Of a stretch of DNA of 64,000 nucleotides, positions 48,865 to 60,904 are shown piece by piece (position 1 is the first letter of the stretch; every line of letters starts with the position of its first letter). Position numbers and translations under genes: made by a program. Source of the stretch: Hymenobacter edaphi (GTDB lineage: Bacteria; Bacteroidota; Bacteroidia; Cytophagales; Hymenobacteraceae); NCBI RefSeq assembly GCF_003258365.1, contig NZ_QHKM01000003.1, positions 372,001 to 436,000 on the forward strand, read 5' to 3'. The notes under the pieces are model-generated. The model was not told the origin of the DNA. It did no database searches and was given only the letters and a program-made list of their open reading frames with translations.

Positions 48865-49047
48865 CTAAGCTGGGCCGTCCAAGGTGGGGAACAGACCAAC
48901 TATTATATCTCCGATGCGCACGGCGGCTCCGCGGCGCAGGGCTTCTTCAACTTTCGACACATCGGCGACCAAAAGGCCGTCCGTCGTGCTGACGGCATCC
49001 ACACCTGACTCCAGATTGGATGCGGTGGTTAGGCTGGTGGCTTGCAT
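48865..49047 (-). CDS. Small ORF (60 residues) beside the peptide importer
   Basis: The ORF starts with ATG and reads MQATSLTTASNLESGV, then TTDGLLVADVSKVEEALRRG and a hydrophobic end (GDIIVGLFPTLDGPA). No signal peptide or known family is seen. It is supported as a gene by a promoter motif (49147-49201) shared with the small ORF at 53157 and by a terminator after it. It lies downstream of the dppC-like gene on the same strand. Confidence 0.5.
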   Translation of the reverse strand: MQATSLTTASNLESGVDAVSTTDGLLVADVSKVEEALRRGAAVRIGDIIVGLFPTLDGPA

Positions 49048-49146
49048 TGTGATGGTGGTTTGAATGCAACAACCCGGATCTGGAAAAGCGGGCGCCAACA
49101 CGAGTGGTTAGCCTTGAGCTGGCGGCCTTTCCTAATCTTTACACTA

Positions 49147-49201
49147 CAAAGGAAGGGTGCAGACGGGCGCAGGTAAAGGAAGAACGCCTTGCTGGTGTGA
49201 C
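49147..49201 (-). promoter_or_regulatory. Shared promoter motif, copy 1
   Basis: On the minus strand a 30-bp block (49172-49201) including TTCTTCCTTTACC is followed 19 bases later by TTCCTTTG (49147-49154), the spacing expected of Bacteroidota -33/-7 boxes. The block matches 24 of 30 bases ungapped with 53437-53466. It drives towards the 60-residue ORF. Confidence 0.55.
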
Positions 49202-49331
49202 GCGTATTTTCTTGAAAGTCGTGGCCCGGTTGTCCGTCGGAGCAGTATGTGTTATTCGTACAACGCATTCAAGACCCAAGCTTTGTGGGCTATATTAAGG
49301 CGTTGCTGTAATTAGTGCGTCTGCGAATTTG

Positions 49332-50348
49332 TTAGCTCTTTGTGACATGCATGCCAGAGGCAAGGCTGGTGGATGTTTGCAAGGGACTGGCTTGCGTAGG
49401 GAGCAGTTGGTAAATGGCGGTAATGGTCAGGGTCAGGGCTAGCAAGCTGCTCGTTATCAGCCACCAGGCCGCTGGCTCCAGCCGGGCGTTGGCCAGTGTA
49501 AGTCCCCAATCGGCCTGATCAGGAGTAAGCCCGACACCCAGAAATGCCAGCGTGGTTTGGAGTCCAAGGCAGATGCTGAGGTTGAGCGGGAGGGTGCTGC
49601 GCAGGCTGGGCCAGGCGTTTGGGATAATGTGGGCCCACAGCAAACGAGCCGCGGAGTAGCCCGCTACGCGCCCGGCCTCCACGTAGGAACGGCGGCGCAG
49701 CTGCTGGACCAGAGTACGGGTAAGGCGGGCGGTACTAGGCCAACAGGTAAATACCAATACGCCGAGCAGCCAGCCGCCGGCCGGGGGGTGAAGAGCAGTC
49801 AGGGCCAGCACCAGCACCAGCCGCGGCACCGCGCCCAGCCAGGCCGCCGCACTCAGCACCAGCCAGTCGAGAGGCACGGCCACGGTGGCGGCAAAAGCAG
49901 CCCGTGAATAAATGGCTGCCGTTGCAAGGGCCGCGCCCAGCAGCCACCAGCCGGCGGCTGCCGGAGCCGAGGCCAGCAGGCCAATAAGGCCAGCGAGTAA
50001 CACGGCGGCCGCGCTGCGCCGCACCCGCAGGCCGGTGTTGCCCCAGTAGCCCGCCGCGGCCCCCAGCAGCAGGCCCAGCGCCGAGGCCAGCAGTGCCGCC
50101 GGCAGGCTGATGATAAATAAGCGCCGTGTGCCCAGCATCAGGTCGGTCAGCACGTCGCGGCCGAAAGGGTCGGTGCCCAGCCAATGCTGCCGGGAAGGCG
50201 GCTGGCTGAGGAGCCCCACGTCCACAAGCGCGGGCCGGCCGGCGGCTGGCCCAAACGCCGCCCAGGCGGCGGCCACGGCCAGCAGCAGCAGCCAGAGCCC
50301 GGCCAGCCCGCGGCCGGAAAAGCGAAAACGCGAACGGGCCGGAGTCAC
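49332..50348 (-). CDS. Oligopeptide ABC transporter permease (DppC/OppC-like)
   Basis: A 338-residue inner-membrane permease with about six hydrophobic segments. The N-terminal WLGTDPFGRDVLTDLMLGTR is the DppC/OppC hallmark and the C-terminal cytoplasmic EAA-like loop is YVEAGRVAGYSAARLLWAHIIPNAW. It starts 4 bases before the stop of the DppB-like gene (ATGA overlap), so they are translationally coupled. No ATPase gene follows. Confidence 0.9.
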   Translation of the reverse strand: MTPARSRFRFSGRGLAGLWLLLLAVAAAWAAFGPAAGRPALVDVGLLSQPPSRQHWLGTDPFGRDVLTDLMLGTRRLFIISLPAALLASALGLLLGAAAGYWGNTGLRVRRSAAAVLLAGLIGLLASAPAAAGWWLLGAALATAAIYSRAAFAATVAVPLDWLVLSAAAWLGAVPRLVLVLALTALHPPAGGWLLGVLVFTCWPSTARLTRTLVQQLRRRSYVEAGRVAGYSAARLLWAHIIPNAWPSLRSTLPLNLSICLGLQTTLAFLGVGLTPDQADWGLTLANARLEPAAWWLITSSLLALTLTITAIYQLLPTQASPLQTSTSLASGMHVTKS

Positions 50349-51349
50349 AGCAGGCGCGGGTCAAGCAGCACATTGAGGAAGTCGGCCAGTAGCCAGGCCA
50401 GCAGGCGCACGGCCGCTATCAGCAGCACGCCCCCGACCAGCACCGGAACGTCGCGGGCGGCGGCGGCTTCGGCCAGCAGGCGGCCCATGCCCGGCAGCGC
50501 GAAGACCACCTCGATAACGACCGCCCCGGCCACCACGCCCGGCACTAGGTCGGCGAGGCGCGTGAAGAACACGGGCGCGGCATTGGGCAGCACATGGCGC
50601 CAGCTGGTGCGTTGCCGCGACGCACCTTTGGCGCGGGCCGTAGCCACGTAAGGCTGTTGCCACTGCTCACGCAGGGCCGCCGCCACCGGCAAAAACAAGG
50701 CGGGCAGGCTGCTTATCGTCAGGGCCGTAACCGGCAGCACGAAGTAGGGCGCCGCCTGCCACGGCCGGGCACCCGTAACCGAAAAATCAGCCGGCAGGCC
50801 GTACGCCGGAAACAGCGGCCAGAAATCAGGGTTGGCCAATAGCAGCAGTAGCAGCATGCCGACGACAAACAAGGGCAGGCTATCCAGAAAATACCCGGCC
50901 GATACCAACCGTCGGTACCAGCGGGGGCGCCGCGCGGCCCACTGGGCCAGCAGCAGCGATAACCCGGCGCCCAGCAGCAGGGCACTGCCGGTGAGCGGCA
51001 GCGTGAGTTGCAGGGCCCGGCGCAGGTGCTCCGTCACGGCTGTGCCGTCGCGAAACGAGCTGCCCAGCTCCCCGCGGCTCACTTGCGTCAGCCAGCGGTG
51101 GTACTGGTTGGGCGTGCCGTGCCACCGCCACGGCAGCAGGCGAAAGTAAAACAGCGGCGTTTGCAGGCCTAGCCGCTGCTGGTAGTCCGTTTCGGCGGCG
51201 GCCTGCTGGCCGAAAGTGCCGACGCGCTCATCCGTGAACAGCTGCGGCGCCGCGCCCGGTAGGCTGCGGCTCAGCAGAAACAGCGCGGAGGCAATCAGCC
51301 AGGCCGTGCCCAGCGCCCGCGCGACGCGCAGCAGCAACGCTCCGGCCAT
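50345..51349 (-). CDS. Oligopeptide ABC transporter permease (DppB/OppB-like)
   Basis: A 334-residue permease partner of the DppC-like protein. N-terminal membrane anchor (LGTAWLIASALFLLSRSLPG) and the conserved region GELGSSFRDGTAVTEHL; the EAA loop is YVATARAKGASRQRTSWRHVLPNA. Other segments are hydrophobic through the C-terminus. It follows the binding protein gene by 4 bases. Confidence 0.9.
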   Translation of the reverse strand: MAGALLLRVARALGTAWLIASALFLLSRSLPGAAPQLFTDERVGTFGQQAAAETDYQQRLGLQTPLFYFRLLPWRWHGTPNQYHRWLTQVSRGELGSSFRDGTAVTEHLRRALQLTLPLTGSALLLGAGLSLLLAQWAARRPRWYRRLVSAGYFLDSLPLFVVGMLLLLLLANPDFWPLFPAYGLPADFSVTGARPWQAAPYFVLPVTALTISSLPALFLPVAAALREQWQQPYVATARAKGASRQRTSWRHVLPNAAPVFFTRLADLVPGVVAGAVVIEVVFALPGMGRLLAEAAAARDVPVLVGGVLLIAAVRLLAWLLADFLNVLLDPRLL

Positions 51350-51353
51350 GGCG

Positions 51354-53090
51354 TCAGGGCTGCACCGGCGCCGGCGTAAACGAGGGCAGGTCGTAGCCCG
51401 GCTCCAGGCCGTTGGGCCGCACGTGCTCGAAGCTCCGCGACACGGCTAGTCGGTTCGGCTCGAAGAACAGCGGGGTAAACGGCACTTCCTGGTACAGCAG
51501 CGTCTGCAGGCGGTGCAGCAGCCGCACCTTGGCAACGGAGTCCTCCGTGCTGGCAAGGGTTTCCAGTAGCTGATCCGAGGCCGCGTTGCCGAAGCGGCTG
51601 CGGTTGGCGCCCCCACTGCCGATGCTGCGCGTGTGCAGCAGCGGCCGCAGGTCGTAGGCAAACGGGTTGCCGTAGAGCGTACGCAGGCTCAAATCAAACT
51701 CCCCGTTGCGGCGCAGTTCCGACAGCTGCCCGGCTTCCGTCGGGTGCAGGGTCACGGGCAGGCCAATCTGCCGGGCGCTCTGCTGAAAAAGCAGCGCGAT
51801 GGTTTCGTAGGTCCGGTCGCCGGCGCTGTAAAACAACCGCAGCGTCAGGGGCTGGGGTTGTTGGGGGCGGCGCCAGCCCTCGGCCGTTTGCTGCCAGCCG
51901 GCCTGCCGGAGCAGCGCCGCCGCCCGGGGCGGGGCGTAAGGCCGCAGGGGCAGGCTGTCGTGGTAGGCCCATTTTTCGCGCGGGCTGATCAGCCCGGTGC
52001 TGCGCTGGCCCTGCCCGTATTGGGTGGCTCGCAGCAGCTGGTCATAGTCGATCAGGTGCGCCAGGGCCTGCCGGGTGCGGGTCTCGCGCAGGCGGGGCTG
52101 CTGCACGTTCATTTCCAGCACCACCACCCGGTAAGATGCGGGCGAGTAGAAGCGGAAGCGGGTGCTGTCGGTGGCTTGGAGCCGCGCAAAATCCGGCCCC
52201 GGCATGTGCGGATACACATCCAGCTCGTTGCGGCGCAGCGCCAGCAGGGCCGTGGCGGGGTTGGGTATCACGTGAAACTCGATGCGGCCGGGTTCGGCCG
52301 CGAGGGCGGGCGTGGTGGCCGCCAGGTTATCGGCCCACCAGTGCGGCTTCCGGGTAAAAGCCAGCTGTTGGCCGACCTGCCAGGTGGCCAGCTGGTAAGG
52401 GCCACTGCCGCGGAGTGTGCGCGGGTCGCGCCAGCGAGCGGGCTGGTTGAATTCTTGCTGAAAAGCCCGGATGGGCGCCAGACGGGCTACCGAGCTGTCC
52501 GCCCGCGTCAGCAGCTGCAGGGGCACGGGCCGCAGGCGGCCCTGCGGATCGATGAGGTACTCGGGCAGGATGGGAAATTCGCCGCTGTTGTCGCGGTATT
52601 CGGGGGCGTAGCCGCGGCACACCAGCGTAAACCGGCGCGGGTCAGCCGCATCAAGCTGCACATCCCGGATAAAGCTCACCAAGCCGCGCAGCCCTTCGTT
52701 GGGCAGGCCCGGGCAGTTGAGTACTTTCAGGGTAAAGGCCACATCCTGCGCCAGGATGGGCTGGCCGTTGTCCCACGTCGCCCGCGGGTGCAGGCGGTAG
52801 CGCAGGTAGGTAAGCGAGTCGCGTCGCTCGACGGCGGGCAGCGTTGCTGCCAGCCAGGGCACGTGGCGCCGGGCGGGGCCGTCCACGGTCAGCAGGCTCT
52901 GGTAAAGCAGGTTGTTGGCCTGCACGGCGTAGGCGTTGGGCAGCGTCACCGGATTCAACGACTCCGGGTCGCGGGGCCAGCAAACCCGTACGGTGGGGGC
53001 ACCGGCCGACTGGGATGATGAGGAAGGCGAGCAGGCAGCGAGACCAAAAATACCGCTGAGCAGGCCCCAAATGGCGGCAGATCGGAGCAT
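51354..53090 (-). CDS. Oligopeptide-binding lipoprotein (SBP family 5)
   Basis: A 578-residue lipoprotein (lipobox LAAC, Cys 20) of solute-binding family 5: VRVCWPRDPESLNPVTLPNAY at the start, LTYLRYRLHPRATWDNGQPI, RGSGPYQLATW and the middle YPHMPGPDF. This family binds peptides, nickel or sugars for ABC import. Directly upstream on the same strand is a 71-residue peptide-like ORF (67-base gap); downstream are two permeases, making an importer unit lacking ATPases. The start is the ATG of the lipoprotein signal. Confidence 0.9.
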   Translation of the reverse strand: MLRSAAIWGLLSGIFGLAACSPSSSSQSAGAPTVRVCWPRDPESLNPVTLPNAYAVQANNLLYQSLLTVDGPARRHVPWLAATLPAVERRDSLTYLRYRLHPRATWDNGQPILAQDVAFTLKVLNCPGLPNEGLRGLVSFIRDVQLDAADPRRFTLVCRGYAPEYRDNSGEFPILPEYLIDPQGRLRPVPLQLLTRADSSVARLAPIRAFQQEFNQPARWRDPRTLRGSGPYQLATWQVGQQLAFTRKPHWWADNLAATTPALAAEPGRIEFHVIPNPATALLALRRNELDVYPHMPGPDFARLQATDSTRFRFYSPASYRVVVLEMNVQQPRLRETRTRQALAHLIDYDQLLRATQYGQGQRSTGLISPREKWAYHDSLPLRPYAPPRAAALLRQAGWQQTAEGWRRPQQPQPLTLRLFYSAGDRTYETIALLFQQSARQIGLPVTLHPTEAGQLSELRRNGEFDLSLRTLYGNPFAYDLRPLLHTRSIGSGGANRSRFGNAASDQLLETLASTEDSVAKVRLLHRLQTLLYQEVPFTPLFFEPNRLAVSRSFEHVRPNGLEPGYDLPSFTPAPVQP

Positions 53091-53156
53091 GGGCAGGAGC
53101 GCTACCGTTGAGGTAAGGCCGGCCAAGATACCCAAGTGCCGCCGAATACAGCCTAA

Positions 53157-53372
53157 TTACTGACCTTCGCCCCAGCCCGTACCGCCCGTGCCCAGCGACG
53201 CCGTGGTCGTTATCTGGCCTTCGCCCCAGCCCGTGCCGCCCGTGTCGGCCGAAGTGGTGGTGGTCGTCGTGGTGGTCGTGGTCGTCGATTCGGCCGTGCC
53301 TTCGTGGACCAGATCCGGGGTAACAAAAAACGAGTTGAATTGGAGGAAGGCGGCGAGTAGAAGTTCCAGCAT
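53157..53372 (-). CDS. Small secreted peptide-like ORF with poly-Thr and tandem repeat
   Basis: 71 residues: a hydrophobic N-terminus (LELLLAAFLQFNSFF) that could be a signal or anchor, then VTPDLVHEGTAES, a run of 11 Thr, and two copies of TGGTGWGEGQ 18 residues apart, the second being the C-terminus. Nothing like it is known to me. It is the first gene of the importer unit and has the shared promoter motif upstream. Whether the C-terminal repeat is a released peptide is unproven. Confidence 0.55.
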   Translation of the reverse strand: MLELLLAAFLQFNSFFVTPDLVHEGTAESTTTTTTTTTTTSADTGGTGWGEGQITTTASLGTGGTGWGEGQ

Positions 53373-53410
53373 GACCGTTGATGTTTGAGGTGTCAAATCT
53401 TTGATTGACA

Positions 53411-53466
53411 CAAAGTTGGGTCATGCCCCTGCCCTGGGTAAAGGAAGAAGCGCGTGCCGTTGTGAC
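53411..53466 (-). promoter_or_regulatory. Shared promoter motif, copy 2
   Basis: On the minus strand a 30-bp block (53437-53466) with TTCTTCCTTTACC is followed 20 bases later by CAACTTTG (53411-53418), 38 bases before the 71-residue ORF. It matches copy 1 at 24 of 30 positions. A GTTGTGAC word at its far end (53459-53466) recurs at 53662-53669, closer to the divergent gene. Confidence 0.55.
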
Positions 53467-53733
53467 TATAATTCCTACTTTATCAGGTGTAATAGACGGA
53501 GAAGAAATGCAGCGGAGAAGTCCCGCTTAGCAGCCTGGGTACGTTAAATTTACCGTTAAATAGCTGCCAGCTGTGACAATACGCCTCTGCAAAGGCCCCA
53601 TTTTTCCAGAATACAAAGCTGCCGCCAAAGCAGGGGGACATTCAAGGAAAAACGGGGGAACGTTGTGACTTGTTCTTTGAGAGGAGAAAGGCAGTACAGA
53701 AAGCCGATTTAAGCGAAAAAACGGAATTAAGCC

Positions 53734-55272
53734 ATGAATGAGCTGGTGAATTTGGCTAAGGTTGTGACGAATCGGCGGTTGACGACCGTGCCCCTGATTG
53801 AGTTTACCAACCGCAGCGACTCCCGGACCCGGGAGGAAGAGCTGCTGGATATTCTGCTGGCCGACGCCAACGTCAGCAATCTGCAGGTAGCCAAGCGCAT
53901 GTACAATAGCGGCTCGGCCAAAAGCCAGGCCACCGTGCGCAAGCTCAAGCAGCGCCTGCAGCACAAGCTACTGAACCATCTGTTTTTTCTGGACCACACC
54001 GACCCGCGGCACCCGGCTTTTCGGCGCTACGAGCAGCAATGCCTGGAAATGCTGTACCAGGCCACGATGCTGTTGCGGGAAGGGGAGCGGGTGCTGCTGC
54101 CGCAGATGCTGCGCAAGGCCGCGCGCCTGGCGGCCGAAGGCGAGTTTACGCCTCAGGCTATCAATGCCTGGGACATGCTGCGCGCCATCAGCATCGAAAC
54201 CAATGACTATTCGCAGTACCGCAAGAGCGTAAAGCAGCTGGAAAAGCTGGAGCAGACGCTGCTGGTAGAGCAGCAGGCTCAGCATCTGTTTCGGGAGGCG
54301 AAGATGAACCTGGCCCGCTCGGTGTCGTCGCGGCGGCGGCTGCTGCAGGAGTTGCCGGTTATCATCGGCAAACTGGAGGCCCTGTATAAGCGGGTGCCTA
54401 CCTATAATGTGTACGACCCGCTGCTGAAGCTGCAGCTGATTCTGCAGGAGCTGGTTGGCAACTTCGAGGAAATCATTCGCATCACTCGCGAGGCCGAAGA
54501 CCTATTCGCCCGCGGCAAACTCAACCCGCGCCGCTTCGACGGGCGCTTTACTAAGTTCTATAACGTATACGGCCACCTGCGGGCCCGGCGCCTGAAGGAA
54601 GGGCTGGCCGTGGCCGAGGGCTACCTGCAGGCGTTTCACCGGTCCAGCAACAACTGGTTTGTGTTTCTGGAAAATTACTATCTACTGGCCATGCACGACG
54701 GCGACTACGCGCTGGCCGGCGACCTGCTGCGGCGGATGCAGAACAACCCGTTCGTGACCAAAATCTCGCAGCCGGCCCGGCAGCGCTGGGATTTGTTTCG
54801 GGCCTACCTATACTTTGTGCGGCCCGAGGAAGCAGGGCTGCGGCCGCTGCACTTTGCGCAGCTGGTGCAGCGCATTCCCGACCACAGCCGCGACAAGCAG
54901 GGCTACAACGTCGCCATCCTGATTCTGCAGTTTCTGCACTACCTGCGCGAGGGCAACATTGAGGCGCTGCTGGCGCGCCTGGAAAGCCTGCGCAAGTACG
55001 AAAGCGCCCACTTGCGCGACGCCGCCACGTTGCGCAGCCGGCTGATGTTCCGGCTGCTGCAACTGACGGTAAAAGAGAATTTCGACCCGAAAGCCTGCGA
55101 GAAGAAGGGGCAGGCCGTGCTGAGCCGGCTCAGCGAAACCCCGCCGCCCGGCGAGGCTTTCGCGGAAATTGAAATCATTCCCTACGAAAGCCTCTGGCAA
55201 CAAACCCTGCTGCTGCTCCAGCACATGGCCGACAAGCAGCAGCAGCGGGAACGGCTGGGGCGCGCCGGTTAG
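53734..55272 (+). CDS. Cytoplasmic helical-repeat protein, unknown function
   Basis: A 512-residue protein with no signal peptide or membrane segment, almost entirely alpha-helical by sequence. The N-terminus (TREEELLDILLADANVSNLQ, then KSQATVRKLKQRLQHKLLNHL) could include a helix-turn-helix-like or coiled-coil segment. The body has paired-helix repeats typical of TPR or TPR-like scaffolds (LEKLEQTLLVEQQAQHLFRE, YNVYGHLRARRLKEGLAVAE, YYLLAMHDGDYALAGDLLRR). It is divergent from the peptide-like ORF and importer across a 361-base regulatory gap. The family is not recognised. Confidence 0.75.
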   Translation: MNELVNLAKVVTNRRLTTVPLIEFTNRSDSRTREEELLDILLADANVSNLQVAKRMYNSGSAKSQATVRKLKQRLQHKLLNHLFFLDHTDPRHPAFRRYEQQCLEMLYQATMLLREGERVLLPQMLRKAARLAAEGEFTPQAINAWDMLRAISIETNDYSQYRKSVKQLEKLEQTLLVEQQAQHLFREAKMNLARSVSSRRRLLQELPVIIGKLEALYKRVPTYNVYDPLLKLQLILQELVGNFEEIIRITREAEDLFARGKLNPRRFDGRFTKFYNVYGHLRARRLKEGLAVAEGYLQAFHRSSNNWFVFLENYYLLAMHDGDYALAGDLLRRMQNNPFVTKISQPARQRWDLFRAYLYFVRPEEAGLRPLHFAQLVQRIPDHSRDKQGYNVAILILQFLHYLREGNIEALLARLESLRKYESAHLRDAATLRSRLMFRLLQLTVKENFDPKACEKKGQAVLSRLSETPPPGEAFAEIEIIPYESLWQQTLLLLQHMADKQQQRERLGRAG

Positions 55273-55625
55273 GGCTTGGCGGCGGTAGCGTTGGCGGGCG
55301 CCGTAGCGGCCCACTGCTCGAAGCGCTGGTACTGAACGGCCGTGAGCAGCGACTTCAGGTTCGTGCGGTATTCTTCGGCAACGGCCTGCAGCTTGGGCTG
55401 GCGCATGGCTTCATCACCCACGTACATGCGGTCGATTTCCTGTTCCTTTTCCATGCGGCTGATCGTCAGGCGCTTAACCTGCAGCTGCCGGGCATCGTCC
55501 AGGCCGAGGCGGGGGGCCAGCGAGCGGGTATAGTCGGCGGCGCGCTGCGCGATGGAAGGCGTGCCCTGGGCGTATGCGCCAACCAGCAGCAGCGAAAGGC
55601 AGGTGGTGGTCAGAAGCTTCTTCAT
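55269..55625 (-). CDS. Small periplasmic protein, unknown function
   Basis: A 118-residue protein with signal peptide (KKLLTTTCLSLLLVGAYAQ). The mature part is helical and charged (QVKRLTISRMEKEQEIDRMY), similar in style to Spy/CpxP-like or DUF-type small secreted proteins of Bacteroidota, with no firm family. It converges on, and overlaps by 4 bases, the helical-repeat gene. Confidence 0.75.
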   Translation of the reverse strand: MKKLLTTTCLSLLLVGAYAQGTPSIAQRAADYTRSLAPRLGLDDARQLQVKRLTISRMEKEQEIDRMYVGDEAMRQPKLQAVAEEYRTNLKSLLTAVQYQRFEQWAATAPANATAAKP

Positions 55626-55796
55626 GGTGGAGTATGGTTGCATTACGTTGAGAACATGTTGGATCGGCAGGACAAAGAAACGCAATGACTTGGAATTATT
55701 GTGAACTTTTGAAATATTTTTTTGCACAGGATTTTGAAGTCCATGAAAGTAAGTCTCGTAACAGTGCAAGTGGATAGAGCAAGTACAACGCCTAAA

Positions 55797-55820
55797 AGCC
55801 CGACCATATTGGCCGGGCTT
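55797..55820 (-). terminator. Terminator after the PKD gene
   Basis: AAGCCCGGCC pairs with GGTCGGGCTT (one mismatch) on the minus strand, followed by TTTT, 36 bases after the stop codon. Confidence 0.7.
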
Positions 55821-55855
55821 GGAAAAATGCATTTTATCAGCAGTGTTGAAATAAG

Positions 55856-56500
55856 CTAAGGCAGCACCACAATCGGACGGCTCACGCAGTGGCTGGCGGG
55901 GCAGGGGTCGGGGCCGTTGGCCCGCAGGCTCATGCGTACCTCGAAGCGGCCGGGCTTGCGGAAGGTGTGCGTCGGACGGCGGCCGTTGCTGATGGTGCCG
56001 TCGCGGAAGTCCCAGAGCACCACCGTGTTGGTGCAGGGCGGAATCTGAGCCCGGGAGGCATCGAAAGTGACCACCTGGCCCACGCGTACGGTATCGGTGG
56101 AAAGGGTGAAATCGACGAGGGGCTCCAGGGTGAAGTCCACCGGGTAGGTCTGCTCGGCGGTGCGCAGGCGGCCAGTGCGCTCATCCAGCACGTCGAGCTG
56201 AATCAGGTAGCGGCGCCGTTCGGCGTAGCAGTGCGACACGACCGGGCCGGTAAGCGTGGTCCCGTCGCCCATCTGCCAGCGGTAGGTGAGGGGGCCGGCC
56301 GCCGGATCGACGGACCGGCGGGCGTCGAGGTCGACGCAGGGCGGGGGCACGCTGGGCCGGGGGCAGGCCACGCTGAGCGTGTCGCCGGCCTGCTGGGCCA
56401 GCGCCGCCGGGCCCGCCAGCAGCAGCCCGAGCACAAGCCGCCGCCCAAAACGCGGGGCGGAGCCGGTAACGCGGGAATAAGCAGAAGCTGGTAGGGGCAT
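55856..56500 (-). CDS. Secreted PKD domain protein
   Basis: A 214-residue exported protein with signal peptide (LVLGLLLAGPAALAQ). Two PKD-like folds are seen: YRWQMGDGTTLTGPVVSHCYA and VLWDFRDGTISNGRRPTHTF with the WxFxDG type core. Six or so Cys residues suggest disulfides. There is no T9SS sorting domain, so it is probably periplasmic or outer-membrane attached. It lies directly after the LytTR regulator gene on the same strand. Confidence 0.82.
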   Translation of the reverse strand: MPLPASAYSRVTGSAPRFGRRLVLGLLLAGPAALAQQAGDTLSVACPRPSVPPPCVDLDARRSVDPAAGPLTYRWQMGDGTTLTGPVVSHCYAERRRYLIQLDVLDERTGRLRTAEQTYPVDFTLEPLVDFTLSTDTVRVGQVVTFDASRAQIPPCTNTVVLWDFRDGTISNGRRPTHTFRKPGRFEVRMSLRANGPDPCPASHCVSRPIVVLP

Positions 56501-56518
56501 GGAAGCGAAAATAACGCC

Positions 56519-57244
56519 CTAGAACTTGTTGAGGCGCTGCAGTACGTCGCGCAGGTAGGTTTGCCCGATGGGCAGGTGCTTGCCGTCGATAACGACGGCA
56601 TTGTCGTCGATGGCCTGCACGTAGCGCAGATTGACGATGGTGGAGCGGTGAATGCGCACGAACTGCTGCGGGGGAAACTTCTCCTCCACGGCCCGCATAG
56701 TGCTGTACACGATAAGCTTCTGCTGCCCGAGCACGATGTGCACGTAGTCGCCGAGGGCCTCCACGTAGTGCACGTCGTCGAAGGCCACGCGCACCAGCTT
56801 GCTGTCGACTTTGACGAAGGTATGGTCGGTGGAAACCGGGGCGGCGGCCGCGGGAGCGGGGGCGGCCTGCGCGGTTTCGAGGGCTTTCTGCGCGGCCTTG
56901 AGGAAGCGGGCGTAGGCCACCGGCTTCACCACGTAATCGACCACACGGTGCTCGAAAGCGGCCACGGCGTAGTCGCGGCTGCTGGTGACGAGCACGACCA
57001 TGGGGGGCTCGGTGAGGGTGTCGAGCAGGTCGAGGCCGCTCATTTCGGGCATATCCACGTCGAGAAACAGCAGGTCGACGGGCGTGGTGCGCAGGGCGGC
57101 GGCCGCCTCGATGGCGCTGCTGCAGGCCCCAACGGACTCCAGGAAATCGGTGTGGGTAATGCAGTTCTGAATCACCTGAATAGCTAGCGGGTCGTCGTCG
57201 ACAACGAGGCAACGCAACGTGGTGGGAGCGGCGGAGTTGGGCAT
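56519..57244 (-). CDS. LytTR family response regulator
   Basis: A 241-residue regulator. The receiver domain (about 10-125) has the acidic pocket VVDDDP and phospho-acceptor Asp 62 in LFLDVDMPEMSG, with Lys in VVKPVAYARF. The LytTR DNA-binding domain (about 143-241) has HTFVKVDSKLVRV, VHYVEALGDYVHI and FVRIHRSTIVNLRYV. It follows the hybrid kinase gene by 36 bases on the same strand, so the two probably form a signalling pair. Confidence 0.93.
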   Translation of the reverse strand: MPNSAAPTTLRCLVVDDDPLAIQVIQNCITHTDFLESVGACSSAIEAAAALRTTPVDLLFLDVDMPEMSGLDLLDTLTEPPMVVLVTSSRDYAVAAFEHRVVDYVVKPVAYARFLKAAQKALETAQAAPAPAAAAPVSTDHTFVKVDSKLVRVAFDDVHYVEALGDYVHIVLGQQKLIVYSTMRAVEEKFPPQQFVRIHRSTIVNLRYVQAIDDNAVVIDGKHLPIGQTYLRDVLQRLNKF

Positions 57245-57280
57245 AGAGCCAAAGGTAGCCGCCGGGGCGGAAAAAGCCAG

Positions 57281-60200
57281 TTAGCCGGCGGCCGCGGCGC
57301 GGCGCAGTTGCAGCAGCGGGAACAGCTGCTGCAACTGCGCCGCCGCCGCGGTGGCCTGGGCCGCCGCGGCGGCGGGCAACTGGCCCTGTTTGGCTTGTTG
57401 CTCAAGCGTATTCAGCTGCTCGTGCAGCCGGGGCAGGCCGAAATAGGCCAGCTGACCCTTGATGCGGTGCGCCAGACTGGCCGCCGCCGCGGCGTCGTGG
57501 GCCGCCACGGCCGCCCGTAGTTGCTCAAGAAGCGGCGGCACGTCGCGCAGGAAGGTGTCGATGACCTGGGCGATGAAGGCTTCGCTGCCAAAGGCCAGCT
57601 CCTCCAGCAGGGACCAGTCCGGCGCTTCGACATCGGAAGCGGGCGGCGGGGCTACTGACGCAATATCCTCGGCCGGCGCGGCCGGGGGCGTTTTTGGGGG
57701 CGTCGCGGCGGCTAGCGGCGTGGTGGCACGGCCGGTGAATCGGGCCAGCGTGGCGTAGAGCACGGCCGGGTCGAAAGGCTTGGGCAGGGTCTCGTTCATG
57801 CCGGCGGCCAGGGCCAGGGCGCGGTCTTCGGGCAGGGCCGAGGCGGTGAGGCCGATGATGGGCAGCGCGGCCGCATCGGGAAAGTGCCGGCGCAGCTGGC
57901 GGCTGGCCTCGTAGCCGTCCATTTCGGGCATCTGCACGTCCATCAGCACGGCGTCGAAGGCGGTGGCGGCGGCGGTTTGCACGGCCAGGCGGCCGTTGGC
58001 GGCCACGACGACCTGCACGTTCCAGGCCTCCAGGGTTTTGCGGGCCACCAGCTGGTTTAGCTCGTTGTCTTCGGCCACCAGTACGCGCAGGGGCGGCGAA
58101 AAAGGCGTCAGCTCGACGGGCGCGTCGGCGGGCAGCGCGGCCGCGTCGGCCTCCGCGTAGGGCAGCTCGAAGAAGAAGGTAGAGCCCACGCCGACCACGC
58201 TTTCCACCCAGAGGCGGCCGCCGTGCAGCTCCACCAGGTTGCGGGCAATGCTCAGGCCCAGGCCGGTGCCGCCAAACTGCCGGGTGGTGCTGGTGTTGGC
58301 CTGCGAGAAGTCCTCGAAAATGGCGTCGAGCTTGTCGGCCGGGATGCCGATGCCGGTGTCCTGCACCGCAAAGCGCACCCGCCACCGGTCGGCCTCGGGG
58401 CGGGCCGTTACGCGCACCGTCACCGTGCCCTGGGTAGTGAATTTGATGGCGTTGCCGATCAGGTTGACCAGCACCTGATTCAGGCGCACCGGGTCGCCCA
58501 GCACGGCGGCGGGCACCTCGGGTGCCAGCTCCAGGCGCAGCAGCAGGCCTTTGCTGGCAGTGGCAAACTCGAACATGCGCGCCACCCGCTGCAGCAGCCC
58601 GCGCAGGCCGAACGGAGTGCTTTCCAGCGTCATCTTGCCGGCCTCGATTTTGGAGGAGTCGAGGATGTCGTTGATGATGGTGAGCAGGTTCTGCGAGGAG
58701 CCCTGAATGGCGGCCAGGTACTCGGTCTGCTCGGGGTTGGTGGGCGTGCGCTGCAGCAGGTGCGTCAGGCCGATGACGGCATTCATCGGCGTGCGGATTT
58801 CGTGGCTCATGTTGGCCAGAAACTGCGCCTTGGCCCGCCGCGAGGCCTCGGCCGCGTCGCGGGCCACCACGAGGTCGGCGTTGATCTGCTCGATGTGGGC
58901 CTTCTGCTGGCGCAGCTCCTGGGTCCGCTCGCGCACCGTCAGCTCCAGCTGCAGCTTCTGGCGGCGCAGCGTGGCTTCGCGGGTGCGGACGAAGGCCCAG
59001 ACGGCGGCGGCGGTAGCCAGCAGCACCAGCGCGGCAAACCACCCGGTGCGCCAGAACGGGGTGGCAATGCCGAAGGCCACGGTGGTAACCGGCCCCCACG
59101 CATCCTGTGGGCGGAGGCGGGCGCGCACTTCCAGCACGTAGCGGCCCGCGTCGAGGCGGGGAAACTGCGCTTCGGATAAGGCCGTCGGCGCACTCCATTC
59201 ATCTATGTAGTTACGCAGACGGTACTGGTACTGCAGGCCCGTGGTGCGCGGCAGCAGGCTGATGCCGCGAAACCGGAAGCCTAGGCGGTGGGTGCCAGCC
59301 GGCAGTTCGCCCAGCTGCGCCGGGTTGCGGGCCGCGCCGTCCACTTCGGTACCGGCCACGACGGTGCGCGGCGGCTGATGGGTGGGCCAGGTAGCTTCCA
59401 GGGCCGCGTCGAGCTGGAGCAGGCCGGTTTGCGTGGCTATCCATAGCTGATTGCCTAGCTGTGACGTCGCAGCCAGCGGCCGGCAGTTGCGCACCAGCGG
59501 ATTATCCGGGTGCGCCAGCAGCAGCGCCCGGCCCCGGTGCGGATCGAAAGCAGTTAGCTGATTTTGGTGGACCAGCAGCAGATAATCTTGGTAGAGGCCG
59601 TATCCGGCGTACATATCGTGTGCTTCGGTGCTGCGCCGAAACGGCACCACGGCGTAGCAGTAGTTCGAGCCCAGGCCATCGGCGGTGGTGAACTGCCGGA
59701 AATGGCCGCCCGCATAGCGGAGCAGACCCTGGCCGGTGGTGCCCACCCAAACGGTGTCGCCGCGGGTTGAAAAGGCGAAATCGGCTACGTCGATGCCATT
59801 GCGAAAGCGGTGGTAGGTGAACCGCCCGGCTTGCCACACGGCCAGGCCGGTGTCGTGCGTTCCGATCCAGACGCGGCCTTGCGGGTCGCAGAGCAGGGCC
59901 GTGATGGCGTTGTGCAGCAAGCCGGTGGCGGTGGTGTAGTGCTGCGTAGGCCGGGCCGGCTGGCTAAACCAATGATACAGGCCATCGGCTTCGGTACCCA
60001 CCCACAGGCTGCTGTCGGCGGGCTGCCAGGCCAGGGACGTGACGCGCAGATTGGCGGGCAGGCGCGGCAGCCGCTGCCGGCGGCCAGCACCGACGCGCCA
60101 GACGCCCTGCGTCGCCGTGCCGGCCCAGGCCGCGGCGGGCCGTTCGTGGGCTACAGCAGCCGGTGGGTAAGCCAGGGCGGTGACGCGAGCAGGCAGCGCC

Positions 60201-60904
60201 GGACCCAGCATGGAGAACGGGCGGGCCGGCGGCAGCGAAGCCGGCGAGAATAGGGAGAAAACTGCGCCATCAGCACCGCCTAGTAGCCAGGCATCCTGAC
60301 GCGACATAGCCGTCAGCGGCTGGTGCGGCAGCTGCCGGCTCGGGCGAAGAAACAGGTGCCGGTCGGAGTGGCGCCACAGGCCCTGGCCGGCGGTGCCCAG
60401 CCAGGCGTTGCCTTCCCGGTCTTGGAGCAGGCAGCTGATGTCCGGGACTTCCGGCAGGTGAAAATAGTGCCGGTACGAGCTGATAGCGGCCGTATCGGCC
60501 ACCGGCAGGCCCGTACGAGCCTTGAACCCAGCGGGCAGAGGCGTGGTTTTATCGGCCCGCTGGAACCGTTGCCCGTCCCAGCGCGACACGCCGCCCTGGT
60601 AGTGGTTGACCCACAGCGTGCGCGTGGTCGAGTCCTCGTAGAGCCGGGTGGCGAAGTCCTCGGCCAGGCCCTGCCGGGTGGTGAAGGTGACGAACTCGGT
60701 GCCGTCGTAGCGCACGAGGCCCTCGGCGGTGGCCACCCAGAGGTAGCCCTGCCGGTCTTGGTGCAGGGCGTAGACGAAGCTGGGCGCGAAGCCCTCGGCC
60801 GGGCCGAACTGCTTCAGCCAGTGCCGCTGCTGGGCCGGCGCCGGCGCCAGCCCGGCCCAAAGCAAGCAAAGCAACAGCCCAAACCGCGCGCAGAAACGAA
60901 TCAT
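57281..60904 (-). CDS. Hybrid histidine kinase with two-component propeller sensor
   Basis: A 1207-residue protein. Order: signal peptide (LLLCLLWAGLAPAPA), a large periplasmic propeller of Reg_prop repeats (about 25-510, e.g. DRQGYLWVATAEGLVRYDG, DPQGRVWIGTHDTGLAVW), a Y_Y_Y domain (about 520-610), one membrane segment (about 621-640), a coiled coil, HisKA with MSHEIRTPMN (His about 699), an HATPase (NAIKF, DTGIGIP, GTGLGLSI), a receiver domain (about 936-1055, Asp in LMDVQMPEMDGY) and an Hpt domain (HRIKG, His about 1143). Phosphate can thus pass His-Asp-His and on to the LytTR regulator. There is no DNA-binding AraC domain, unlike classical hybrid two-component systems. No polysaccharide genes are nearby. 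Confidence 0.94.
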   Translation of the reverse strand: MIRFCARFGLLLCLLWAGLAPAPAQQRHWLKQFGPAEGFAPSFVYALHQDRQGYLWVATAEGLVRYDGTEFVTFTTRQGLAEDFATRLYEDSTTRTLWVNHYQGGVSRWDGQRFQRADKTTPLPAGFKARTGLPVADTAAISSYRHYFHLPEVPDISCLLQDREGNAWLGTAGQGLWRHSDRHLFLRPSRQLPHQPLTAMSRQDAWLLGGADGAVFSLFSPASLPPARPFSMLGPALPARVTALAYPPAAVAHERPAAAWAGTATQGVWRVGAGRRQRLPRLPANLRVTSLAWQPADSSLWVGTEADGLYHWFSQPARPTQHYTTATGLLHNAITALLCDPQGRVWIGTHDTGLAVWQAGRFTYHRFRNGIDVADFAFSTRGDTVWVGTTGQGLLRYAGGHFRQFTTADGLGSNYCYAVVPFRRSTEAHDMYAGYGLYQDYLLLVHQNQLTAFDPHRGRALLLAHPDNPLVRNCRPLAATSQLGNQLWIATQTGLLQLDAALEATWPTHQPPRTVVAGTEVDGAARNPAQLGELPAGTHRLGFRFRGISLLPRTTGLQYQYRLRNYIDEWSAPTALSEAQFPRLDAGRYVLEVRARLRPQDAWGPVTTVAFGIATPFWRTGWFAALVLLATAAAVWAFVRTREATLRRQKLQLELTVRERTQELRQQKAHIEQINADLVVARDAAEASRRAKAQFLANMSHEIRTPMNAVIGLTHLLQRTPTNPEQTEYLAAIQGSSQNLLTIINDILDSSKIEAGKMTLESTPFGLRGLLQRVARMFEFATASKGLLLRLELAPEVPAAVLGDPVRLNQVLVNLIGNAIKFTTQGTVTVRVTARPEADRWRVRFAVQDTGIGIPADKLDAIFEDFSQANTSTTRQFGGTGLGLSIARNLVELHGGRLWVESVVGVGSTFFFELPYAEADAAALPADAPVELTPFSPPLRVLVAEDNELNQLVARKTLEAWNVQVVVAANGRLAVQTAAATAFDAVLMDVQMPEMDGYEASRQLRRHFPDAAALPIIGLTASALPEDRALALAAGMNETLPKPFDPAVLYATLARFTGRATTPLAAATPPKTPPAAPAEDIASVAPPPASDVEAPDWSLLEELAFGSEAFIAQVIDTFLRDVPPLLEQLRAAVAAHDAAAAASLAHRIKGQLAYFGLPRLHEQLNTLEQQAKQGQLPAAAAAQATAAAAQLQQLFPLLQLRRAAAAG

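Follow-up and report, generated by a model that had tools for sequence, protein, structure and literature searches.

The 64,000-nucleotide (nt) stretch of Hymenobacter edaphi DNA analysed here (assembly GCF_003258365.1, contig NZ_QHKM01000003.1, positions 372,001 to 436,000), which we call the window, comes from a 6.04-Mb genome and carries a block of genes for a small repeat-bearing peptide, a peptide importer and a helical protein, HP. A first-pass annotation had described a 71-residue open reading frame (ORF) with a hydrophobic N-terminus and a repeated TGGTGWGEGQ, a binding lipoprotein with two permeases on the same strand, and a divergent 512-residue helical-repeat protein, and had suggested that together they could form an autocrine signal-import-receptor module. 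We found every one of these parts, at the following positions in the window.

53157..53372, minus strand: peptide precursor, 71 residues, with its ATG at 53372
53316..53372, minus strand: hydrophobic leader of the precursor, residues 1-19, including Gln11; its conserved positions were read from 79 precursors
53214..53243, minus strand: first predicted unit, TGGTGWGEGQ, residues 44-53, from the sequence and the selection on units
53160..53189, minus strand: second, C-terminal predicted unit, TGGTGWGEGQ, residues 62-71, on the same grounds
51354..53090, minus strand: peptide-binding lipoprotein (SBP), with its ATG at 53090; Pfam SBP_bac_5, E 7e-55; lipobox LAAC by eye
50345..51349, minus strand: PermB, an Opp/Dpp-type permease; Pfam BPD_transp_1, 3.1e-27
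49332..50348, minus strand: PermC, an Opp/Dpp-type permease; Pfam BPD_transp_1, 2.9e-14
53734..55272, plus strand: HP, a 512-residue alpha-solenoid protein by AlphaFold2 and Foldseek and the proposed peptide receptor

The small ORF reads MLELLLAAFLQFNSFF...TGGTGWGEGQ...TGGTGWGEGQ. An alternative GTG start at 53411 would give an 84-residue precursor, yet this GTG lies inside a promoter element. The ORF is the first gene of an apparent operon and is followed by SBP, PermB, PermC and a gene for a 60-residue protein. Because only 66 nt separate the peptide stop from the SBP ATG, the SBP-PermB gap is 4 nt and the PermB and PermC genes share 4 nt, transcription as an operon is likely. A codon pattern for GTGWGEG had just two matches genome-wide, both in the 71-residue ORF, and the reversed control pattern had none.

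A match to HP was present in 193 of the 200 genomes of the family, at one place in the window's own genome, and the nearest HP among the named records found was that of Hymenobacter jeollabukensis, at 95% identity. Linkage was read from two sets of loci that overlap in genomes (L097 and L194, for example, are one place): 60 fetched HP loci from six genera, and 80 named records of Hymenobacter, Solirubrum, Adhaeribacter, Botryobacter and Rufibacter, which with the window make 81 loci. In the first set the peptide ORF accompanies HP at 58 of 60 loci, the two without it (L073 and L097) being second HP copies, and SBP, PermB and PermC lie divergent from HP at 53. The seven loci without a divergent importer comprise two contig ends (L102 and L103) and five variant loci (L073, L097, L104, L105 and L106). 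FtsH, RsfS and BirA, which neighbour the block on the importer side in the window, are each found at 7 of the 60. The second set gave a peptide ORF at 79 of 81 loci (78 of the 80 named records, and the window) and a divergent SBP with both permeases at 71 of 80; four of the nine without the importer (L191, L207, L211 and L221) are contig ends, and at these four the precursor is truncated as well. Rearranged loci hold the parts together: in L104 HP is followed by SBP with the peptide divergent, and in L105 and L106 two HPs share one SBP and one peptide. Co-occurrence of the three gene types in relatives, a check that the first-pass annotation had proposed, is thus borne out, and close relatives keep the block where it had allowed that neighbours might differ. 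Two single loci may be mentioned here: the second HP copy at L073 has an SBP and no permeases, and at L108 (G013:C5) a tandem of three similar peptide genes separates HP from SBP.

The linked SBP is missing as well from the seven family genomes without HP, which retain only distant SBPs, at 23-25% identity, whereas the linked SBP was found in all seven HP-bearing genomes of the same search. In a tree of FtsH these seven genomes form one clade with a support of 1.0, and the joint loss of HP and linked SBP is therefore one event, not seven.

A peptide finder whose conditions were a hydrophobic N-terminus, positions 2-9 free of Lys and Arg, and a Trp beyond residue 20 was used to collect precursors, also at the 60 fetched loci. 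It recovered 77 from the 81 loci; with L179 and L209, which have Lys3 and were entered by hand, the set comes to 79. As these were the finder's conditions, the hydrophobicity, the scarcity of Lys and Arg at positions 2-9 and the Trp hold partly by construction. The precursors, including the four cut by contig ends, range from 49 to 271 residues, with 60 of the 79 no longer than 100. Their leaders follow the pattern M-[LF]-[EN]-L-..-A-L-[LF]-Q, with Gln11 conserved in 76, Leu9 in 71 and Ala8 in 66; a basic residue at positions 2-9, which the finder excluded, occurs in two, both of them the hand-added ones. Thr and Ser abound in the linker, both in the window and in many relatives. There follow between 1 and 18 Trp/Gly units per precursor (a single one in 22 of 79), and in all 79 a Gly stands four residues ahead of the last Trp. 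The distance from peptide start to HP start is 347-383 nt in 75 of 77 loci, and the start codon is GTG in 17 of 77.

Units within a precursor are 96% identical as protein (996 pairs), whereas last units of different loci are 53% identical, with 62 distinct 9-mers in 79 loci. For the 57 precursors with at least two units, the per-locus mean proportion of synonymous differences between units (pS) was 0.40 and that of nonsynonymous differences (pN) 0.043. In the predicted frame pS exceeded pN in 54 precursors and fell below it in two, while in the other frames pS was below pN in 55 and 49 of the 57. The units are under purifying selection in the predicted frame only. Since the copies diverge synonymously, we suggest that selection for one sequence, rather than recent copying, keeps them alike, and this sameness within a precursor would fit a multi-copy pheromone precursor with one receptor. 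The first-pass annotation had worried that the small ORF might not be conserved; its presence at 79 of 81 loci and the codon-level selection on its units point the opposite way. On the frame test and the conservation at 58 of 60 loci we also rejected a chance ORF as the explanation for the 71-residue gene.

HP was modelled by AlphaFold2 from 42 sequences as a confident all-helical solenoid, with a predicted local distance difference test score (pLDDT) of 89.6 and a predicted template modelling score (pTM) of 0.85. The alignments used for HP (A1 and A2) hold the window's HP and 41 of the 60 fetched HPs. The nearest solved folds ranked by Foldseek are superhelices of the tetratricopeptide repeat (TPR) type, from Ski complexes, LGN and SPINDLY, and also MalT. 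Searches of Pfam, NCBIfam, PHROGs and PDB sequences placed HP in no known family with another role, an outcome that the first-pass annotation had named as refuting its reading. For the window's HP there was no significant family in Pfam, in NCBIfam (nothing at E<=1) or in PHROGs (best E 0.26), and no TPR match at E<=1 in Pfam. Weak TPR matches appear among the 42 members, with TPR_12 in nine (best 3.1e-4) and TPR_MalT in one (2.4e-5). A profile search of PDB sequences gave nothing useful, its sole match being KWOCA_73 at E 0.019, and none of the best 50 of 271 matches among viral models was an AimR-like fold by title. The protein is 512 residues long in the window and 474-520 residues at 58 of 60 loci, the remaining two not being cleanly read. 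Residues 28-118 form a helical region that looks like a helix-turn-helix by eye (AlphaFold pLDDT 81, pTM 0.51); Foldseek matches to this region reached only E 5-10, none of them significant, and seven of the 11 rows (six entries) are helix-turn-helix proteins by title or general knowledge. Pfam matches in the same N-terminal part were HTH_24 in 5 of 42 members (best 0.031, below the cut-off) and NNH6 in 9 of 42.

The importer, a family-5 binding lipoprotein with two BPD_transp_1 permeases, is of the Opp/Dpp type, and no OppD/OppF-type ATPase gene lies within the block. Elsewhere in the genome a 748-residue ORF (G000:C1:146330-147586), which holds two oligo_HPY matches and is the only ORF in the genome with any, is probably a fused OppD-OppF ATPase and could power the block's importer. 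The SBP search query began at 53093, one codon before the ATG at 53090, which left the matches unaffected. That SBP is simply the genome's ordinary peptide-binding protein was considered and rejected, the other genomic match to it being at 26%.

When 394 genomes of the phylum were searched with an HP profile, 25 gave matches, some of them close to the threshold, and 21 of the 25 belong to other families; copies at two or more places were seen in eight of these genomes. In 20 fetched stretches around such copies, 9 of 21 HP copies stand divergent to a small ORF whose leader is hydrophobic, as against 4 of 135 other genes, by a small-ORF filter that was set after viewing the lists from those loci. 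Eight of these nine distant pairs are in other classes and one (L245) is in another family of the same class. Distant peptides ending in [IV]DRxED are encoded by three genes, in L246, L248 and L256, with similar ones in L257 and L261. As distant pairs lack this importer nearby, the HP-peptide pair seems to predate its coupling to the importer. For six distant HP copies one neighbour apiece was also compared, and these showed no family in common. As separate observations, L256 and L257 contain, past the first peptide ORF, another small ORF that carries repeats resembling IDRGENN and lacks a hydrophobic leader, and L252 (G356:C13), from another family of the class, has two HP relatives in tandem and no peptide by the filter.

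The accessible text of PMC7564271 and PMC12700828, for example, presents signalling through imported peptides and helical-repeat receptors in the cytoplasm as a trait of Gram-positive bacteria and their phages. The accessible sections of PMC10075063 give five criteria for RRNPP/RRNPPA systems, used in RRNPP_detector in a survey restricted to complete Firmicutes genomes: a propeptide of 10-100 residues, adjacent genes, secretion by Sec (by PptAB in some), a receptor of about 250-500 residues and a match to a TPR profile. Against these, the window has a precursor of 71 residues, peptide and HP genes that are divergent neighbours, a hydrophobic leader that, as in all but two of the 79 precursors, has no basic residue at positions 2-9, a candidate receptor slightly over length at 512 residues and no TPR-profile match for it. 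To the list we added homology of HP to known RRNPP receptors, and none was detected in the PDB-sequence, NCBIfam and PHROGs searches. Because HP has neither a TPR-profile match nor detectable receptor homology, we do not file the block as an RRNPP member by the features tested; it may nevertheless work like one. We regard the analogy drawn in the first-pass annotation as partly supported, by the parts, their linkage and the selection on the units.

The likeness to RRNPP/RRNPPA systems (Rap, Rgg, NprR, PlcR, PrgX and AimR, of Bacillota and phages) lies in a small precursor gene beside that of a helical-repeat cytoplasmic protein and in entry through a peptide permease. What differs is the Gram-negative host, the presence of importer genes inside the block and a leader nearly without Lys or Arg. 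Unit number differs too, at 1-18 here compared with the 1 to 4 repetitions given for RRNPPA propeptides in the accessible part of PMC11343458; the tandemly duplicated Phr propeptides Phr3T and Phr105 described there likewise carry more than one pheromone copy per precursor, but far fewer than here, and no homology to their receptors was detected. In Cryptococcus neoformans the secreted peptide Qsp1 is imported by Opt1 and acts intracellularly (PMC7537855, accessible text), which resembles the proposed end of our pathway in a fungus and with another transporter. Bacteroidales clusters for ribosomally synthesised and post-translationally modified peptides share small precursors with our block; as far as the accessible text of PMC10352776 goes, they have double-glycine leaders, peptidase-containing ATP-binding transporter (PCAT) exporters and, in two of nine, TPR-like genes. 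The leader of our precursor is not of the double-glycine type by eye. Other Opp/Dpp importers have the same family-5 lipoprotein and two BPD_transp_1 permeases, and ours differs from them as a dedicated copy with no ATPase gene in the block. Yeast alpha-factor precursors also carry tandem pheromone units, but these are eukaryotic signals sensed at the cell surface and not imported. We know of no receptor gene linked to that of Qsp1. A full-text literature search listed no description of such a system in Bacteroidota among its matches, subscription papers being largely outside its coverage.

We think it reasonably probable that the block is a signal-import-receptor module for autocrine or cell-to-cell peptide signalling, working like the Gram-positive RRNPP systems. 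This reading is supported by the presence and conserved linkage of the genes, also in rearranged loci, by their joint loss in one clade, by the codon-level selection and by units that are alike within a precursor and different between species. Further support comes from the confident solenoid model of HP with TPR superhelices as its nearest folds, from the divergent small ORFs beside distant HP copies and from the half-sites common to the two divergent promoters, described below. In such a module, the small gene would encode a precursor whose hydrophobic leader keeps it in the inner membrane or takes it across, and proteolysis would free the Trp/Gly units. The dedicated binding lipoprotein would capture a unit, PermB and PermC would import it with power from the OppDF-type ATPase encoded elsewhere, and the unit would bind cytoplasmic HP and so change gene expression or a protein target. 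Several units would provide dose, and a species-specific sequence would make the signal private. We are evenly divided on a more specific claim, namely that Gram-negative Bacteroidota have here a pheromone system of imported peptides with a separate receptor family (no sequence kinship to RRNPP being detectable), an importer within the block and up to 18 species-specific units per precursor, whose receptor-peptide core predates the importer link and reaches other classes with an IDRxED motif. If the block works as we read it, it would represent a separate invention in a Gram-negative phylum that is nearly universal in one family; candidate pheromone sequences could be read from a genome and cross-talk predicted from the unit sequence. 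Since the predicted units can be synthesised, the block is directly testable.

Several of our results weigh against the signalling reading. The leader, being almost devoid of Lys and Arg, does not look like a canonical Sec signal, and an outer membrane stands between cells. Foldseek matched the HP model to nothing at E<=0.001, and none of the 50 matches listed is an RRNPP receptor by its title. Second HP copies without a peptide ORF exist (L073, L097 and L227), 12 of the 21 distant HP copies have no peptide by the filter, and distant HP-peptide pairs have no such importer nearby, the sole SBP-like match around the distant copies, in L254, being at 19%. The co-loss of HP and SBP counts as a single event, which shrinks the argument from phylogenetic profiles. 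Finally, partial rank correlations with unit distance, from at most 72 of the 79 loci, were 0.17 for HP, 0.11 for PermB, 0.07 for SBP and -0.01 for PermC; HP correlates only slightly better than the other proteins, and the test could not say whether units follow HP or the importer.

Some of the same facts could be accounted for by self-sensing within one cell, in which a peptide retained in the envelope reports the state of the membrane, of secretion or of proteolysis to HP. The short leader nearly without Lys or Arg, the outer membrane and the distant HP-peptide pairs without this importer all suit such an arrangement; we nonetheless regard it as unlikely, for units that vary from species to species, with as many as 18 in one precursor, would better fit a private signal between cells. 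The Gly-rich repeated peptides next to an importer also bring to mind a peptide antibiotic or trojan-horse toxin directed at competitors or at kin that lack the system, with the importer as its entry and HP providing immunity or regulation. This is improbable in our view. By eye we saw no modification enzyme, PCAT or other peptide exporter among the window's near neighbours (profile scans covered some of these, and a remote enzyme may exist), the neighbours vary between loci, and bacteriocin loci are patchy in distribution, unlike an HP match found almost throughout the family.

We would be surprised if the block served to import nutrient peptides under local regulation, with a leader peptide or attenuator of the operon in the small ORF and control of peptide use by HP. 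The position of the ORF at the head of the apparent operon and the weak helix-turn-helix hints in the N-terminal region of HP would be in keeping with it, but a unit number of 1-18 with conservation at the protein level would not, and the HP and peptide ORF are paired without this importer in other classes. Least credible, to the point of being very improbable, is a small secreted repeat protein of structural or adhesive function beside an unrelated importer: its Thr/Ser-rich linker, Gly-rich repeats and resemblance to New_glue (E 0.0083, below the curated cut-off) are set against the single unit in 22 of 79 precursors and the linkage to HP and SBP that persists in rearranged loci.

Three further features were located in and beside the block.

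53390..53411, strand not assigned: inverted repeat GTGTCAA-N8-TTGACAC, from the sequence; probably located where peptide transcription starts
53663..53669, plus strand: TTGTGAC element upstream of HP, from the sequence
48865..49047, minus strand: conserved 60-residue small protein with the core TIDGxxVxxxxGxxALRxGxAxxIGxxxVG; relatives at 26 of 54 loci

Within 85 nt ahead of the peptide start, TTTGTG is present at 54 of 77 loci, and in 49 of these 54 it lies 41-47 nt upstream. TGTCA-N8-12-TGAC was found at 24 of 77 loci and in 0.06% of random windows, and TTGTGAC upstream of HP at 38 of 77 and in 0.26%, with patterns picked after viewing those same sequences and random windows that carry no correction for relatedness. 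The divergent promoters have TGTCA/TGACA half-sites in common, and one regulator may serve both.

Window position 48865 is the end of the 60-residue ORF behind PermC, a gene that the first-pass annotation did not describe. The 26 loci with relatives include the window; alignment A3 holds 22 of the 26 small proteins, and the five members scanned showed no significant Pfam family. On the other side of the block, the region behind HP on the minus strand (55269-60904) encodes a small protein that is probably secreted, a protein with a PKD domain and, judged by eye, a regulator of the LytTR type and a hybrid kinase; these have matches somewhere in 17, 11, 23 and 24 of the 60 fetched stretches, respectively.

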